This document shows, piece after piece, positions 48,588 to 54,689 of a DNA stretch of 64,000 nt. Every line of letters starts with the position of its first letter. Positions within the stretch are counted from its first letter, which is position 1. Source of the DNA: Hoyosella altamirensis (GTDB taxonomy: Bacteria; Actinomycetota; Actinomycetes; Mycobacteriales; Mycobacteriaceae); assembly GCF_014191505.1 (NCBI RefSeq), contig NZ_JACHWS010000002.1, positions 806,001 through 870,000 of the forward strand, given 5' to 3'. The notes below the pieces were generated by a model. That model did no database searches. It was not told the origin of the DNA and worked only from the letters and a program-made list of their open reading frames with translations. The translations under genes were made by a program, and so were the position numbers.

Positions 48588-48718
48588 GTCACCAGCCTAA
48601 GCGACAACTGCCCATGGGACCGGCCGGAACCCCCCGAGGTGATGGCCGGGCGGACGAATTCGCTTTGGCCGGGATGAACTGGTAGCTTTCGGGGGTTACT
48701 GACGTAACGACCCTCCTG

Positions 48719-48735
48719 CCACGGAACGTCCGTGG
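48719..48735 (+). promoter_or_regulatory. Hairpin in the rpsF leader, possible S6:S18 binding site
   Basis: CCACGG pairs with CCGTGG around AACGT, followed by CCGTACAAGCCC. The nearby CCG and ACA resemble parts of the known bacterial S6:S18 leader motif that feeds back on rpsF operons, but I cannot fit the whole structure. Confidence 0.3.
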
Positions 48736-48767
48736 CCGTACAAGCCCGTAGGAGGTGATGTGGTCCC

Positions 48768-49055
48768 GTGCGTCAATACGAACTGATGGTGATTCTCGAT
48801 CCTAGATTGGACGAGCGCACCATTGCCCCTTCACTAGATACTTTCCTCAACGTCATCCGTCAGGGCGGCGGCTCCATCGACACTGTCGATATCTGGGGTA
48901 AGCGCCGCTTGGCATACGAAATCAACAAGCACAGCGAAGGCATCTACGCAGTCATCAATGTGTCGGCTGAGCCTGCAACCGTGAAAGAACTTGACCGTCA
49001 GCTCGGGCTCAATGAGTCAGTTCTGCGTACCAAGGTCCTGCGGGTCGCGAGCTGA
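48768..49055 (+). CDS. rpsF: 30S ribosomal protein S6
   Basis: 95 residues, the full length of S6: [15 protein letters not shown] at the start, [22 protein letters not shown] in the middle and [15 protein letters not shown] at the end. It binds the central domain of 16S rRNA together with S18. GTG 48768 follows GGAGGTGAT. First gene of rpsF-ssb-rpsR-rplI. Confidence 0.97.
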
Positions 49056-49090
49056 TTTACCCAGATCTAGACCCAGTGCCCTGTGGCCCA

Positions 49091-49109
49091 CCCGGGCCGT
49101 ATGCCCGGG
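49091..49109 (+). repeat. Hairpin between rpsF and ssb
   Basis: CCCGGGC-cgtat-GCCCGGG, flanked by GGCC-like bases, lies in the 76-base gap. It may tune the relative amounts of S6 and SSB mRNA. Confidence 0.5.
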
Positions 49110-49131
49110 GCCGCCGACGAACGGAGGATTC

Positions 49132-49635
49132 ATGGCAGGCGACACCGTAATTACGGTGATCGGCAACCTCACCGCAGACCCAGAACTCCGCTTCACTCCT
49201 GCGGGGGCAGCCGTCGCGACGTTTACCGTTGCGTCGACACCGCGGAAGTACAACTCGCAGACCAGCCAGTGGGAGGACGGCGACGCGCTGTTCCTCCGGT
49301 GCAACATCTGGCGTCAGGCTGCGGAGAACGTCGCGGAATCACTGCAAAAGGGAATGCGCGTCATCGTGAACGGACGTTTGCGCCAGCGCAGCTTCGAAAC
49401 CCGAGAGGGTGAGAAGCGCACGGTGATTGAGCTTGAAGTCGACGAAGTCGGTCCCTCGCTCCGTTACGCGACCGCCAAGGTCAACAAGGCGGGCCGTAGC
49501 GATGGTGGTCAGGGAGGCGGCGGACGTGGTGGTGGTGGCTTCACAGCCGGTGCCGCAACCGCAGCCAGTGATCCCTGGGGCAGTGCTCCTCCGGCTGGCG
49601 GATTCGCTGCACAGGATGACGAACCGCCATTCTGA
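49132..49635 (+). CDS. ssb: Single-stranded DNA-binding protein
   Basis: 167 residues. The OB-fold covers about residues 1-115 ([69 protein letters not shown]). A Gly-rich linker leads to the acidic tip DDEPPF that recruits repair and replication partners. ATG 49132 has GGAGG upstream. Located in the ribosomal operon as is usual. Confidence 0.97.
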
Positions 49636-49685
49636 GCAGGGTCTGGGTCTGACCTTCAGACACCAGGAATACACGGAGAACGACC

Positions 49686-49922
49686 ATGTCCAAAGCGCTT
49701 ATGCGCCCGGCAAAAACAAAGGTCTGTGCGTTCTGTAAAGCTACAGAAGCGCAGATCAACTACAAAGATGCGACGATGTTGCGGAAATTTGTCAGTGATC
49801 GCGGCAAAATCCGTGCACGTCGCGTAACCGGTAACTGCGTCCAGCACCAGCGGGACGTTGCTACAGCAGTCAAAGTTTCACGAGAGATGGCCTTGCTGCC
49901 GTACACCTCAACGGCACGCTAA
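49686..49922 (+). CDS. rpsR: 30S ribosomal protein S18 (zinc-binding type)
   Basis: 78 residues. CAFCK near the N terminus and NCVQHQ further on give the Cys residues of the zinc-containing (C+) form; [25 protein letters not shown] is the family core. Mycobacteria carry this form in the rpsF operon and a Cys-free copy elsewhere under zinc control; no second copy is visible here. Confidence 0.95.
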
Positions 49923-49941
49923 GGAACGGGAGGACCCAAGA

Positions 49942-50397
49942 ATGAAGCTCATCCTCACAGCTGACGTTGAGCACCTCGGCGCTCCTGGCGACACCGTCGA
50001 GGTCAAGGACGGCTACGGCCGCAACTACCTGCTGCCCCGCGGATTGGCGATTCGTGCCACCCGCGGTGCTGAAAAGCAGGTCGAGGAATTGCGGAAGGCA
50101 CGCGAAACGCGCGCTGCCCGCGACCTCGAGGCGGCCAAGGAAGGCCAGAAGAAGCTCGAGGAGCTCGGCACCCTCACCCTTGCTGTTCGTACGGGTGCAG
50201 GTGGCAAGCTCTTTGGCTCAGTGAGCGCTGCCGACGTCGCAGACGCACTCAAGAATGCCACCGGCCTTGCGGTTGATCGCCGCAACGTCGAACTGCCGTC
50301 AGCTCACCTGAAAGCAGTTGGCAAGTACTCGGTGGCAGTGCAGCTGCACTCGCAGGTATCAGCGAAGCTGAACCTGCAGATTCAGCCAGCTAGCTGA
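49942..50397 (+). CDS. rplI: 50S ribosomal protein L9
   Basis: 151 residues. The N domain [34 protein letters not shown] binds 23S rRNA, a long helix ([20 protein letters not shown]) connects to the C domain ([14 protein letters not shown]). ATG 49942 has GGGAGGA upstream. Last gene of the operon. Confidence 0.97.
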
Positions 50398-50924: not shown

Positions 50925-53900
50925 GTGGGGGTAGTCGACGACCGGGGTTATGTCGCACCGAGCGATGGGGACGAGGCCCCGGGTGATGGCAGCAGCCACA
51001 ACAGCAATGGGAACCGCACAGATTCCCGCGCTGACGGCCTGCTACGTCAGCCGCCGCAGGACCTCGGAGCCGAACAAGCCGTGCTAGGCGGCATGCTCCT
51101 GAGTAAGGACGCGATTGCGGACGTTGTCGAGAAGCTACGCCAGGGCGATTTCTATCGGCCAGCCCACCAGGACATTTACGACAGCATCCTCGATCTGTAT
51201 GGGCGAGGCGAACCCGCCGACCCGGTCACGGTTGCCGCCGACTTGGAGCGCCGCGGTGACTTGAGGCGCATCGGTGGCGCGCCTTACCTGCACACACTCA
51301 TTTCCACGGTTCCTACTGCCGCCAACGCAGGCTTCTATGCGGAAATCGTCGCAGAGAAGGCGATCCTGCGTCGGCTGGTTGAAGCGGGAACACGAATCGT
51401 TCAGTACGGCTACGCAGGGGCGGACGGCCAGGACGTGGCCACTGTCGTCGACCGGGCACAGGCGGAGATCTTTGAGGTCACTGAACGTCGTACCACCGAG
51501 GACTACGTTGCGCTAGAGGAACTCCTCCAGCCCACCATGGATGAAATCGACTCGATCGCTTCCCGCGGTGGCATTTCACTCGGGGTTCCGACAGGTTTTG
51601 TGGAGTTTGACGAGCTCACCAATGGGCTGCACCCCGGTCAGATGATTATCATCGCGGCCAGGCCTGGGGTTGGAAAGGCGCTTTCCCTGGATACCCCGCT
51701 CCCGACACCGTCCGGTTGGACCACGATGGGTGACGTCGAGGTGGGCGACTATTTGATTGATGCTCAAGGTAAGCCGACACGAGTGGTAGCCACAACGGAC
51801 GTGATGCGGGGCAGACCCTGCTACGAAGTGGAGTTCTCCGACGGATCGATACTGATTGCTGACGCGGAGCACCAGTGGCTAACCGAGACTCGAGCGTCTA
51901 GGAAGTCTGCACAGGCGGCAGCCATCGGGTACAACCGGCACCGCAATCAGCGGACCTTCGCTGAGGTGAGAACCACACGCGAGATAGCCCAGACGATACG
52001 GTGCAGGACGAAAGATCTGCGCCTCAACCATTCTGTGGTGAATGCCAAGCCGATCGCATTGCCAGACCGTTCGCTTCTCCTTCCGCCGTACACACTCGGT
52101 GCGTGGCTGGGTGACGGAACAACGGCATGCGCGCAGCTCACCTGCGCTGACCCAGAGATCGTCATGAACATCGAGGGTGAAGGCATTCTCGCGATCGCAT
52201 CCAAGTCAGCACGCCTGCGCTATTACCTTCGGCTGGAAAATGACACCGCGCAAGCTCGGCTGAGGACGATCGGCGTACTCGAGAACAAACACATCCCCAC
52301 CGAGTACCTCCGCGCATCTGAAGCACAACGAAGGGCCTTACTTGCGGGATTGCTAGATACCGACGGCACGGTGACGCACGGCGGTGCGGTGCAGTTCTCG
52401 AATACGAACAAACGTCTGATTGACGACGTGGTGGAATTGGTTGTCAGCCTTGGCTACCGAGCGCACGTTAGTCGCAAGCAGGTCAAGGGCCGCCGCGAGG
52501 AAAGCTCGACTGCATTCACAATTACGTTCTCGACCGCGGATGACGTCTTCCGACTTCCACGGAAGATGTTGCTGCATAAGGAGCGGAGGCCATCGCACAG
52601 CACGGCGCGTTCCCACTCCCGTTTCATCGTGGACGTGCGATCCATTCCGAGCGTGCCAGTGAGGTGTCTCGAAGTCGATAACGCAGAGCATCTCTACCTC
52701 GCGGGGCGCTCGATGATTCCGACCCACAATTCCACCCTGGGAATGGATTTTTTGCGGTCGTGCTGCATCAAGTACGGAAAAGCGGGTGCGCTCTTCTCCC
52801 TCGAAATGAGCAAGACAGAGATCGTTATGCGGCTGCTGTCCGCTGAGGCGAAAATCAAACTCGCAGATATGCGTTCGGGCAAGATGAACGATGACGACTG
52901 GACGAAACTAGCCCGCCGAATGAGTGAGATCAGCGAGGCGCCGCTCTTCATCGATGACTCACCAAATCTGACAATGATGGAGATCCGGGCGAAAGCGCGT
53001 CGTCTCAAGCAGAAGAACGACCTCAGTCTCGTCATCGTCGACTACCTGCAGCTCATGTCTTCCGGCAAGAAGCACGAGTCACGGCAACAGGAGGTCTCTG
53101 AATTCTCGCGAAGCCTGAAGCTGCTGGCGAAAGAACTCGAAGTCCCCGTTATCGCGATCAGCCAGCTGAACCGAGGCCCTGAACAGCGCACAGATAAGCG
53201 CCCGCAGGTCTCTGACCTGCGCGAATCGGGATGCCTCCCGGCTTCGACGCGAATCTTGCGGGCCGACGACGGATCAGAGGTGACGTTAGGCGAATTACTC
53301 GCCACCGGTGAGCAGCCTCTGGTTTGGTCACTTGATGAGCGGATGCGGATGGTTGGCCGACCGATGGTGAAGGTATTTCCCAGCGGGCAGAAGGAAGTGT
53401 TCCGAGTACGGATGGCGTCAGGCCGCCAGGTGGACGCCACCGCGAATCACCCGTTCATGACGGTTGATGGCTGGATTAGCCTCGAGCATCTGAACGTCGG
53501 GGACAGGGTGGCCACACCTCGATTGGTCCCCGAACCCGTGCACACACGGTCACTTCCAGAAGCGGAGGTGGTGCTGCTCGCGCACATGATTGGCGACGGC
53601 TCTTGCGTCAAACGTCAGCCGATCCGATACGCGAGTATCGACGAAGAAAACCTGCTCGCCGTGACCACAGCCGCCCAGCATTTCGGAGTCACAGCGGTGC
53701 GCGACGAGTACCCCGCAGCGCGCTGCGTCACGCTGCGTTTGCGGGCGCCGGAACGTCTCGCCCGAGGTAAGCGGAACCCTATTGCTGCGTGGCTCGATGA
53801 TCTCGGATTGTTCGGGCTGCGAAGCTATGAGAAGTTCGTGCCGCATCCTGTATTCACGCTTCCTAACTATCAAATTGCGCTCTTCTTGCGCCACCTCTGG

Positions 53901-54689
53901 GCAACGGACGGATCCGTGCGCTGGGACGCTACGGGTCGTCAAGCCCGGATCTACTATGCGTCGACTAGCCGAAGGCTGGTGGACGGTATCGCCCAACTGC
54001 TCTTGCGGCTAGGGATCGCAAGCCGAATCAGGGTTGTGCGCAAGCCGGGCTACCGCGACTGTTGGCATCTCGTACTCGAGGGGGCAGAGAACCAACTGAA
54101 ATTCCTCCATGAGGTGGGTGTCCACGGAAGTCGTGGTGAGGCGGTGCGGACAGCCGCTGATGAACTTGAAGCCATAGCCACCAACACGAATGTGGATACG
54201 GTACCGAAGGAAGTCTGGACGAAAGTCCGCGATTTGCTCGCCGCCAAAGAGATGACACACCGTGAGTTCGCTGCAGCCATGGGTTCGCGGTTCTGTGGTT
54301 CCACCATGTGGAAGCGCTCGCCAAGCCGCTCTAGGCTCGCGCGGGTCGCGAACATCCTCGATGACGAAGATATCGAAATGCTGGCGACAAACGATGTCTA
54401 CTGGGATCGCATCGTCGAGATCAAAAGCCTAGGTGAACAAGAGGTCTTCGACGGAACCGTACCGGGGACGCACAACTTCATCGCTGACGGCGTTGCCGTG
54501 CACAACTCTCTGGAACAGGATGCCGACATGGTTATTCTGCTTCACCGGCCAGATGCGTTCGAGCCAGACGACCCGCGCGGGGGAGAAGCGGACATCATCG
54601 TGGGCAAGCATCGTGCCGGACCGACTGCGACCATCACAGTCGCTCACCAACTGCACTTTTCGCGGTTCGTGGACATGGCGCGAGGATAG
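50925..54689 (+). CDS. dnaB: Replicative DNA helicase DnaB with two inteins
   Basis: 1254 codons; after removal of two inteins the exteins make a 478-residue helicase. N-terminal domain: PQDLGAEQAVLGGMLLSKDA (residues 44-63). The Walker A motif is split: GVGK (residues 248-251) and S603 TLGMDF rejoin on splicing to RPGVGKST. Further motifs are SLEMSK, IVDYLQLM (Walker B), AISQLNRGPEQR, SDLRESG|SLEQDADMVILLHRP and IIVGKHRAGPT. It unwinds DNA at the replication fork. GTG 50925 has AGGAGGGG upstream. Activity depends on both splicing events because the first intein breaks the ATP-binding loop. Confidence 0.97.
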   Translation: MGVVDDRGYVAPSDGDEAPGDGSSHNSNGNRTDSRADGLLRQPPQDLGAEQAVLGGMLLSKDAIADVVEKLRQGDFYRPAHQDIYDSILDLYGRGEPADPVTVAADLERRGDLRRIGGAPYLHTLISTVPTAANAGFYAEIVAEKAILRRLVEAGTRIVQYGYAGADGQDVATVVDRAQAEIFEVTERRTTEDYVALEELLQPTMDEIDSIASRGGISLGVPTGFVEFDELTNGLHPGQMIIIAARPGVGKALSLDTPLPTPSGWTTMGDVEVGDYLIDAQGKPTRVVATTDVMRGRPCYEVEFSDGSILIADAEHQWLTETRASRKSAQAAAIGYNRHRNQRTFAEVRTTREIAQTIRCRTKDLRLNHSVVNAKPIALPDRSLLLPPYTLGAWLGDGTTACAQLTCADPEIVMNIEGEGILAIASKSARLRYYLRLENDTAQARLRTIGVLENKHIPTEYLRASEAQRRALLAGLLDTDGTVTHGGAVQFSNTNKRLIDDVVELVVSLGYRAHVSRKQVKGRREESSTAFTITFSTADDVFRLPRKMLLHKERRPSHSTARSHSRFIVDVRSIPSVPVRCLEVDNAEHLYLAGRSMIPTHNSTLGMDFLRSCCIKYGKAGALFSLEMSKTEIVMRLLSAEAKIKLADMRSGKMNDDDWTKLARRMSEISEAPLFIDDSPNLTMMEIRAKARRLKQKNDLSLVIVDYLQLMSSGKKHESRQQEVSEFSRSLKLLAKELEVPVIAISQLNRGPEQRTDKRPQVSDLRESGCLPASTRILRADDGSEVTLGELLATGEQPLVWSLDERMRMVGRPMVKVFPSGQKEVFRVRMASGRQVDATANHPFMTVDGWISLEHLNVGDRVATPRLVPEPVHTRSLPEAEVVLLAHMIGDGSCVKRQPIRYASIDEENLLAVTTAAQHFGVTAVRDEYPAARCVTLRLRAPERLARGKRNPIAAWLDDLGLFGLRSYEKFVPHPVFTLPNYQIALFLRHLWATDGSVRWDATGRQARIYYASTSRRLVDGIAQLLLRLGIASRIRVVRKPGYRDCWHLVLEGAENQLKFLHEVGVHGSRGEAVRTAADELEAIATNTNVDTVPKEVWTKVRDLLAAKEMTHREFAAAMGSRFCGSTMWKRSPSRSRLARVANILDDEDIEMLATNDVYWDRIVEIKSLGEQEVFDGTVPGTHNFIADGVAVHNSLEQDADMVILLHRPDAFEPDDPRGGEADIIVGKHRAGPTATITVAHQLHFSRFVDMARG
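51678..52730 (+). other. Intein 1 of DnaB, class 3 (WCT) with LAGLIDADG endonuclease
   Basis: Residues 252-602 (351 aa), inserted between Lys and Ser of the Walker A motif. It starts with Ala, not Cys or Ser, and ends THN before Ser. The class 3 triad is present: Trp 318 in block B (DAEHQWL), Cys 581 in block F (VRCLEVDN) and Thr 600 in block G (IPTHN). In that class the block F Cys starts splicing by attacking the N-terminal junction directly. Two endonuclease motifs, LGAWLGDGTT and LLAGLLDTDGTV, suggest a homing enzyme that may still be active. Confidence 0.9.
53232..54506 (+). other. Intein 2 of DnaB, class 1 with LAGLIDADG endonuclease
   Basis: Residues 770-1194 (425 aa), inserted in SDLRESG|SLEQDAD. 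It begins with Cys (CLPASTRILRADDG), block B is ATANHPFMTVDG, and it ends VPGTHNFIADGVAVHN before Ser, all as in a canonical intein. Endonuclease motifs are LLAHMIGDGSC and LFLRHLWATDGSV. An extra segment (about residues 1090-1150, VRDLLAAKEMTHREFAAAMG) looks like a small helix-turn-helix, perhaps for binding the homing site. Confidence 0.92.

Follow-up and report, generated by a model that had tools for sequence, protein, structure and literature searches.

An endonuclease-bearing class 3 intein in the Walker A loop of DnaB in Hoyosella altamirensis, with a second intein in the same gene

The gene for the replicative helicase DnaB of Hoyosella altamirensis is interrupted in its ATP-binding loop by an intein, here called intein 1. 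The gene lies in a stretch of 64,000 nucleotides (positions 806,001 to 870,000 of the forward strand of contig NZ_JACHWS010000002.1, assembly GCF_014191505.1), which was analysed as a whole and is referred to below as the window. Very probably, intein 1 is of class 3, belongs to the DnaB P-loop kind and bears an endonuclease; it would splice to restore the GKS motif and would be present mostly through mobility. A second intein, intein 2, follows further downstream in the same gene. The positions of all features are collected in Table 1.

Table 1. Features of the dnaB gene, numbered from the first base of the window
Feature	Position	Strand	Basis or remark
dnaB precursor, replicative helicase with two inteins	50925..54689	+	GTG start; ORF, Pfam, NCBIfam
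Intein 1, 351 aa, class 3 signature, splits Walker A Lys/Ser	51678..52730	+	
Cys48 codon, matches disulfide partner of M. smegmatis DnaBi1	51819..51821	+	aligned to Cys48 of 6bs8
Trp67 codon, W of WCT, block B	51876..51878	+	
Homing endonuclease domain of intein 1 (approximate extent)	52083..52577	+	Pfam Hom_end, aa 463-537
Endonuclease acid codons of intein 1, D146 and D229	52113-52115; 52362-52364	+	
Cys330 codon, C of WCT, block F, presumed initiating nucleophile	52665..52667	+	aligned with block F Cys of 6bs8
Thr349 (T of WCT), His350, Asn351	52722..52730	+	+1 Ser at 52731-52733
Middle extein, between the insertion sites	52731..53231	+	6/501 bases differ from relative G002
Intein 2, 425 aa, class 1 features, LAGLIDADG endonuclease	53232..54506	+	Pfam, sequence split

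The precursor is 1254 aa long, of which 478 aa are left once both inteins are removed. Its product is matched by the Pfam profiles DnaB and DnaB_C and by the NCBIfam DnaB equivalogs, and all 1254 codons are open with no frame break. In actinobacteria, dnaB is usually sited after the genes for Ssb and ribosomal protein L9; the products of the two upstream ORFs, at 48991-49635 and 49858-50397, are presumably an Ssb and an L9, respectively. Beyond the end of dnaB, the window has no blastn match in the two stretches of the close relative G002 (L174 and L175), and gene order seems to break directly 3' of dnaB between these two genomes. DnaB is single in the genome, with only one further protein matched by the PF03796 profile, which we take to be RadA. 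Since this genome has one DnaB, splicing is probably obligatory.

Intein 1 takes up residues 252-602 of the precursor, where it is preceded by RPGVGK and followed by STLGMD. In G002 the site is empty and reads GVGKSTLGMD without interruption. The initial annotation, made from the window alone, had placed an intein in the Walker A loop at this location; its boundaries are exact to the base and its residue numbers are likewise correct. It had assigned the intein to class 3 by a WCT triplet of Trp318, Cys581 and Thr600 (positions 67, 330 and 349 of the intein), and the junctions and the alignment with solved inteins agree with that assignment. The three residues stand in blocks B, F and G, block B reads DAEH, the C-terminus is THN with a +1 Ser, and the insertion falls between the Walker A Lys and Ser, as in the DnaBi1 family. 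The proposed first residue, Ala, which is no nucleophile, is also at position 1 in the alignment to class 3 inteins, and that column holds Ala in 116 of 118 aligned inteins, the window's included. The solved chains closest to intein 1 are 6bs8 (E = 4.4e-44), 6rix (1.9e-43) and 6riy (9e-43), each of which is annotated as 'Replicative DNA helicase'; the aligned segments comprise the N-terminal 71-80 and the C-terminal 33-35 residues, with both junctions covered. We take 6bs8 to be the M. smegmatis DnaBi1 intein and 6rix and 6riy to be the M. chimaera DnaB1 intein, presumably the structures 6RIX/6RIY of the paper on the latter. The next-best structural matches are endonucleases such as PI-SceI, at E = 5.8e-5 and weaker. 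H65, W67, C330 and T349 are kept in all 156 distinct aligned relatives (window included), a count with partial ascertainment in that 74 of the aligned loci came from six search peptides, two of which cover W67 or C330.

One could also suppose that the element belongs to class 1 or 2, or is no more than a dead insertion, and that its WCT residues occur by chance. We give this next to no credence: nothing was found in its support, Ala1, W67, C330, T349, H350 and N351 align with the solved class 3 inteins, and the frame remains open across all of its codons, which speaks against a dead insertion. Judged by these residues, intein 1 is class 3, with classes 1 and 2 excluded, and it belongs to the known DnaB P-loop kind, at the same site as M. 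smegmatis DnaBi1.

The site, the class, the pairing with a second intein, the endonuclease and the proposed switch are all already known, from the M. smegmatis DnaBi1 papers and a survey of class 3 inteins. M. smegmatis DnaB is described as having two inteins, the P-loop class 3 mini-intein DnaBi1 and the class 1 intein DnaBi2, which lies in motif H4 and has an endonuclease (PMC6195587). Intein 1 shares with DnaBi1 its class, the P-loop site, Ala1, W67, the block F Cys, the Thr-His-Asn end, the +1 Ser and Cys48, and its residues 1-71 and 317-351 align with that intein. However, DnaBi1 is a mini-intein with a 139-residue chain and two Cys, whereas intein 1 has 351 aa, an endonuclease and five Cys (48, 109, 151, 156 and 330). 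The M. chimaera DnaB1 intein (PMC7664689), represented by the 6rix match given above, is likewise class 3 with WCT, but its solved form has 145 residues and no endonuclease. More similar in size are the large class 3 inteins of Mycolicibacterium sphagni, Nocardia, Rothia, Microbacterium and Actinomadura, which share the DnaB P-loop site, WCT and Cys48 and range from about 285 to over 400 aa; in many relatives of ~400-417 aa, extra sequence is found near position 190 of the window intein, inside the endonuclease domain. Intein 1 has both acids of a LAGLIDADG endonuclease, D146 and D229, as well as the Pfam Hom_end match, and from these its endonuclease is predicted to be active. Its retention is common to most published class 3 inteins; the 2020 survey gives LAGLIDADG motifs for 82.5% of 1701 class 3 inteins (PMC7891396).

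A splicing pathway can be proposed from what has been published on homologues, from which the branched intermediate, the transfer to the +1 Ser, the Asn cyclisation and the disulfide pause are all taken. After translation, attack of Cys330 on the Lys-Ala1 bond would create a branched thioester; the N-extein would then be transferred to the +1 Ser, and Asn351 would cyclise, with ligation of Lys and Ser restoring GKS. Intein 2 would splice independently by the Cys1 pathway. DnaB should be inactive until intein 1 leaves, with the Walker A Lys and Ser held apart; the earlier proposal that DnaB must splice before it can bind ATP is supported by the sequence on this point. Through its endonuclease, intein 1 would invade dnaB alleles that lack it, and its presence is most likely due to such mobility. 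Under oxidation, splicing could be paused by a disulfide between Cys48 and Cys330. We infer, in short, that intein 1 splices, that the precursor is inactive, that the endonuclease cuts and that oxidant slows splicing.

The same residues could be read as a host-adapted redox or metal switch, with the intein kept because an oxidative pause in DnaB maturation benefits the cell. Both cysteines of the presumed redox toggle, Cys48 and the block F Cys330, are indeed in intein 1, and the genome has the one DnaB only. In M. smegmatis, DnaBi1 is described as slow to splice and reversibly inhibited in the cell by H2O2, with a Cys48-Cys118 disulfide detected by mass spectrometry, and all seven Cys48 substitutions tested are reported to have abolished splicing (PMC6195587). 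The Cys48-Cys118 distances given for the M. smegmatis structure are 11.0 and 12.1 Å (PMC6195587). Later reports describe inhibition of DnaBi1 by zinc (PMC7360933) and by reactive chlorine (PMC8557812), so the control of mycobacterial DnaB inteins by oxidation and metals through Cys, cited in the initial annotation, is on record for DnaBi1. The M. smegmatis authors also tie the loss of the endonuclease to maintenance by function (PMC6195587). For intein 1 we nonetheless consider a host-adapted switch unlikely. The close relative G002 is without any DnaB intein, the intact-looking endonuclease means that the element could persist through mobility, and Cys48 is equally fixed in large and mini inteins; as its substitutions in DnaBi1 abolished splicing, its conservation needs no explanation beyond splicing. 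Because of its endonuclease domain, intein 1 is indicated as a mobile element at least as much as a host switch. The overall interpretation in the initial annotation thus stands as regards class 3, the P-loop site and splicing ahead of ATP binding. Its 'single exposed Cys in block F' does not, as there are five Cys, including the disulfide partner Cys48, and it had overlooked intein 2 and the endonuclease.

The case for Cys48 as a family feature comes from an alignment of relatives. From 133 loci, 123 complete inteins were obtained, 118 of them distinct (the window's included), and a further 20 stretches of genome sequence, together with 20 records from phages or plasmids, enlarged the alignment to 156 distinct inteins. 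DnaB was assigned as host by the Walker A sequence preceding the junction, which applied to 119 of the 156: 60 from named genome contigs, 57 from other genomes, one viral and that of the window. Cys48 is found in 118 of these 119 distinct DnaB P-loop inteins, large or mini, where only identical sequences were collapsed and near-identical strains were counted separately; none of the search peptides spans position 48, and W67 and C330 were partly selected for. By length, it is present in 99/100 inteins of at least 280 aa, 11/11 of 200-279 aa and 8/8 of less than 200 aa, and also in 76 of the 77 with both endonuclease acids. The sole exception, from Nocardiopsis lucentensis (L037), has Ser48 and keeps both endonuclease acids. 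Among the 37 inteins of other hosts (terminases, other ATPases and one phage DnaB-like helicase), 27 have Cys48 and the remaining 10 have T, S, L, V, I or a gap. In these 37, Cys48 tends to go with Asp62: 21 have both residues and 9 have neither, 6 have just the Cys and 1 just the Asp (Fisher p = 0.0003, a statistic that ignores relatedness, with Asp62 falling within a search peptide). We treat the coupling as a lead only.

The 2018 discussion of the M. smegmatis intein terms Cys48 'non-conserved' (PMC6195587). By the counts above, this wording suits class 3 inteins at large and not the DnaB family. No statement of Cys48 conservation in DnaB inteins was found in the literature, among the matches listed. 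The naturally split class 3 AceL NrdHF intein is reported to splice without its only other Cys, which is differently placed, and by analogy this speaks against Cys48 as a general rule for class 3 inteins. In the DnaB family, the loss of splicing with every tested substitution of Cys48 in M. smegmatis is enough to account for its conservation, and redox sensitivity therefore need not postdate the loss of the endonuclease. Cys48 probably predates any regulatory use, given its presence in large and mini inteins alike. As far as the aligned relatives tell, the Cys48/Cys330 pair is a family-wide trait and not a special adaptation of this host. The three further Cys and the endonuclease domain could, however, change the redox behaviour of intein 1. 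When WCT was grafted on the class 1 gp41-1 intein, the outcome was reported as mainly cleavage, with at most trace spliced product (PMC7664689). In 6riz, a solved gp41-1 chain with the grafted Trp, the position equivalent to Cys48 is Ser, and Cys48 is a candidate for the compensatory change missing in that construct. As a separate observation, the P-loop intein of Mycobacterium hubeiense (L065) ends in His-Thr, not His-Asn, in an open frame; its splicing may be incomplete, or the genome may be misread there.

Mobility is consistent with how the inteins are distributed. Among 101 family genomes, DnaB is unsplit in 43, split at the P-loop only in 49, at the second site only in 2 and at both in 6, as counted by hand, with a split scored solely from a break in the profile match; G097 was left unassigned, and G046, with one split and one unsplit DnaB, was counted as P-loop. 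At least 55 of the 101 sampled genomes thus have a DnaB interrupted at the P-loop. We claim no linkage of the two inteins in the 101 genomes from these counts (6 with both, 2 with the second site only). Within the genus, represented by three genomes, the window has both inteins, G001 the second-site intein only and G002 none, and by this comparison intein presence comes and goes between close relatives. The nearest intein 1 by splicing domain is that of Mycolicibacterium sphagni (L021), at 86%, with an extein identity of 82% in the alignment. The nearest extein among carriers is that of another locus (L101), at 88%, with an intein identity of 82%. When 118 loci are ranked by their identity to the window, the intein and extein rankings correlate at 0.56. 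Since the two identities rank differently, the history is not simply vertical, which hints at a lateral history of intein 1. In the literature on Hoyosella or Amycolicicoccus, no mention of inteins was found among the matches listed. In three family genomes, class 3-like inteins of 554-558 aa were also seen after a GGxTGxGK loop in a non-DnaB protein, in frames of about 1450-1500 aa (L134, L135 and L136).

Intein 2 occupies residues 770-1194 of the precursor, preceded by DLRESG and followed by SLEQ. It has Cys1, TANH in block B, a C-terminal His-Asn and a +1 Ser, as expected for class 1, and Pfam matches it with Intein_splicing (780-1194) and LAGLIDADG_3 (984-1065). In its class, Cys1, His-Asn end, +1 Ser and endonuclease, it is like M. 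smegmatis DnaBi2 and the M. tuberculosis DnaB intein, a likeness drawn from their descriptions; judged by its place in the protein, it would occupy the same second site as DnaBi2. In the dnaB of G001 (L129), intein 2 has GYG in its first LAGLIDADG motif, as against GDG in the window, and its splicing ends look intact. With Tyr in place of the first LAGLIDADG acid, the endonuclease in G001 is probably dead.

The exteins suggest that homing into this dnaB was recent. Between the window and G002, 83 of 1437 extein bases differ, and 81 of the 83 changed codons are synonymous. These differences are unevenly spread: the middle extein has very few (Table 1), compared with 77/936 (about 8%) in the remainder (Fisher p = 2e-9). 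The ratio of synonymous divergence in the middle extein to that in the N-extein is 0.12, against a median of 0.98 in 153 other dnaB pairs, which share loci and hence are not independent. Of the 153, a single pair has a ratio of 0.15 or less; it is from Rothia and likewise has the P-loop intein. One and the same Rothia locus recurs in two further pairs, whose ratios are 0.23 and 0.26. In one reading, which rests on three genomes, a close relative of G002 was the donor of the window's middle extein along with the inteins. In a Rothia pair (L015/L049), the sequence after the P-loop site is 0.7% different and that before it 11%, possibly another homing tract.

The chance that this low-divergence tract is instead an ordinary recombination tract or a product of constraint, unrelated to homing, falls just short of even. 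Similar tracts occur elsewhere: of 165,116 overlapping 485-base windows outside dnaB, 0.63% have at most 4 differences. These fall at four locations, among them 48655-50070, just upstream of dnaB. Counted as independent blocks, the low tracts are 3 of 349, in 181,849 aligned bases at 6.1% divergence. The upstream edge is also gradual, since there are 7 differences in the 153 bases that precede the P-loop site and 57 in the 600 bases further upstream, so that the 153-base segment lies between the tract (p = 0.016) and the region beyond (p = 0.052). The downstream edge, on the other hand, is sharp, with 13/183 bases different after the second site. Constraint alone is an unlikely cause, considering how far the synonymous ratio lies below that of the other pairs and that the middle extein of the window is 18% different from that of G001. 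Differences that co-conversion from a distant donor might have left beside the insertion points were not in excess within 10 bases (5 vs 2.43 expected, p = 0.078), nor at wider distances; what the exteins show is the reverse, too few differences between the sites.

If the middle extein did arrive by homing, a tract with its end at any point within intein 2 would give the same picture, and stepwise homing is therefore as compatible with the data as double homing. Entry of two inteins together into an empty allele is reported to be highly inefficient in Haloferax (PMC10643990), which would favour a history in which intein 2 was already in place when intein 1 homed in. Because G002 is empty, its lineage would have to be polymorphic.

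Both lines of evidence can be joined in a reading, possible though less likely than not, where the cysteine pair is an old and near-obligatory part of splicing, the sensitivity to oxidant is its by-product, and both inteins arrived recently. The pair would then be common to mobile and immobile members of the family, with the sensitivity not gained after the loss of the endonuclease, and the 0.5 kb between the sites would derive from a G002-like donor, through one double homing or stepwise.

Intein 1 is ordinary for its family. Its use is that it separates two ideas that M. smegmatis DnaBi1, which has lost its endonuclease and is redox-sensitive, cannot. At the same site, it has the same two cysteines beside an apparently intact endonuclease, and so would provide a test of adaptation against by-product. 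The occurrence of none, intein 2 only and both within a single genus would likewise offer a natural system for the study of neighbouring bacterial inteins. If the cysteine pair is indeed an old part of the splicing machinery, oxidant sensitivity in these inteins would be a by-product of splicing chemistry in selfish elements and not an adaptation.
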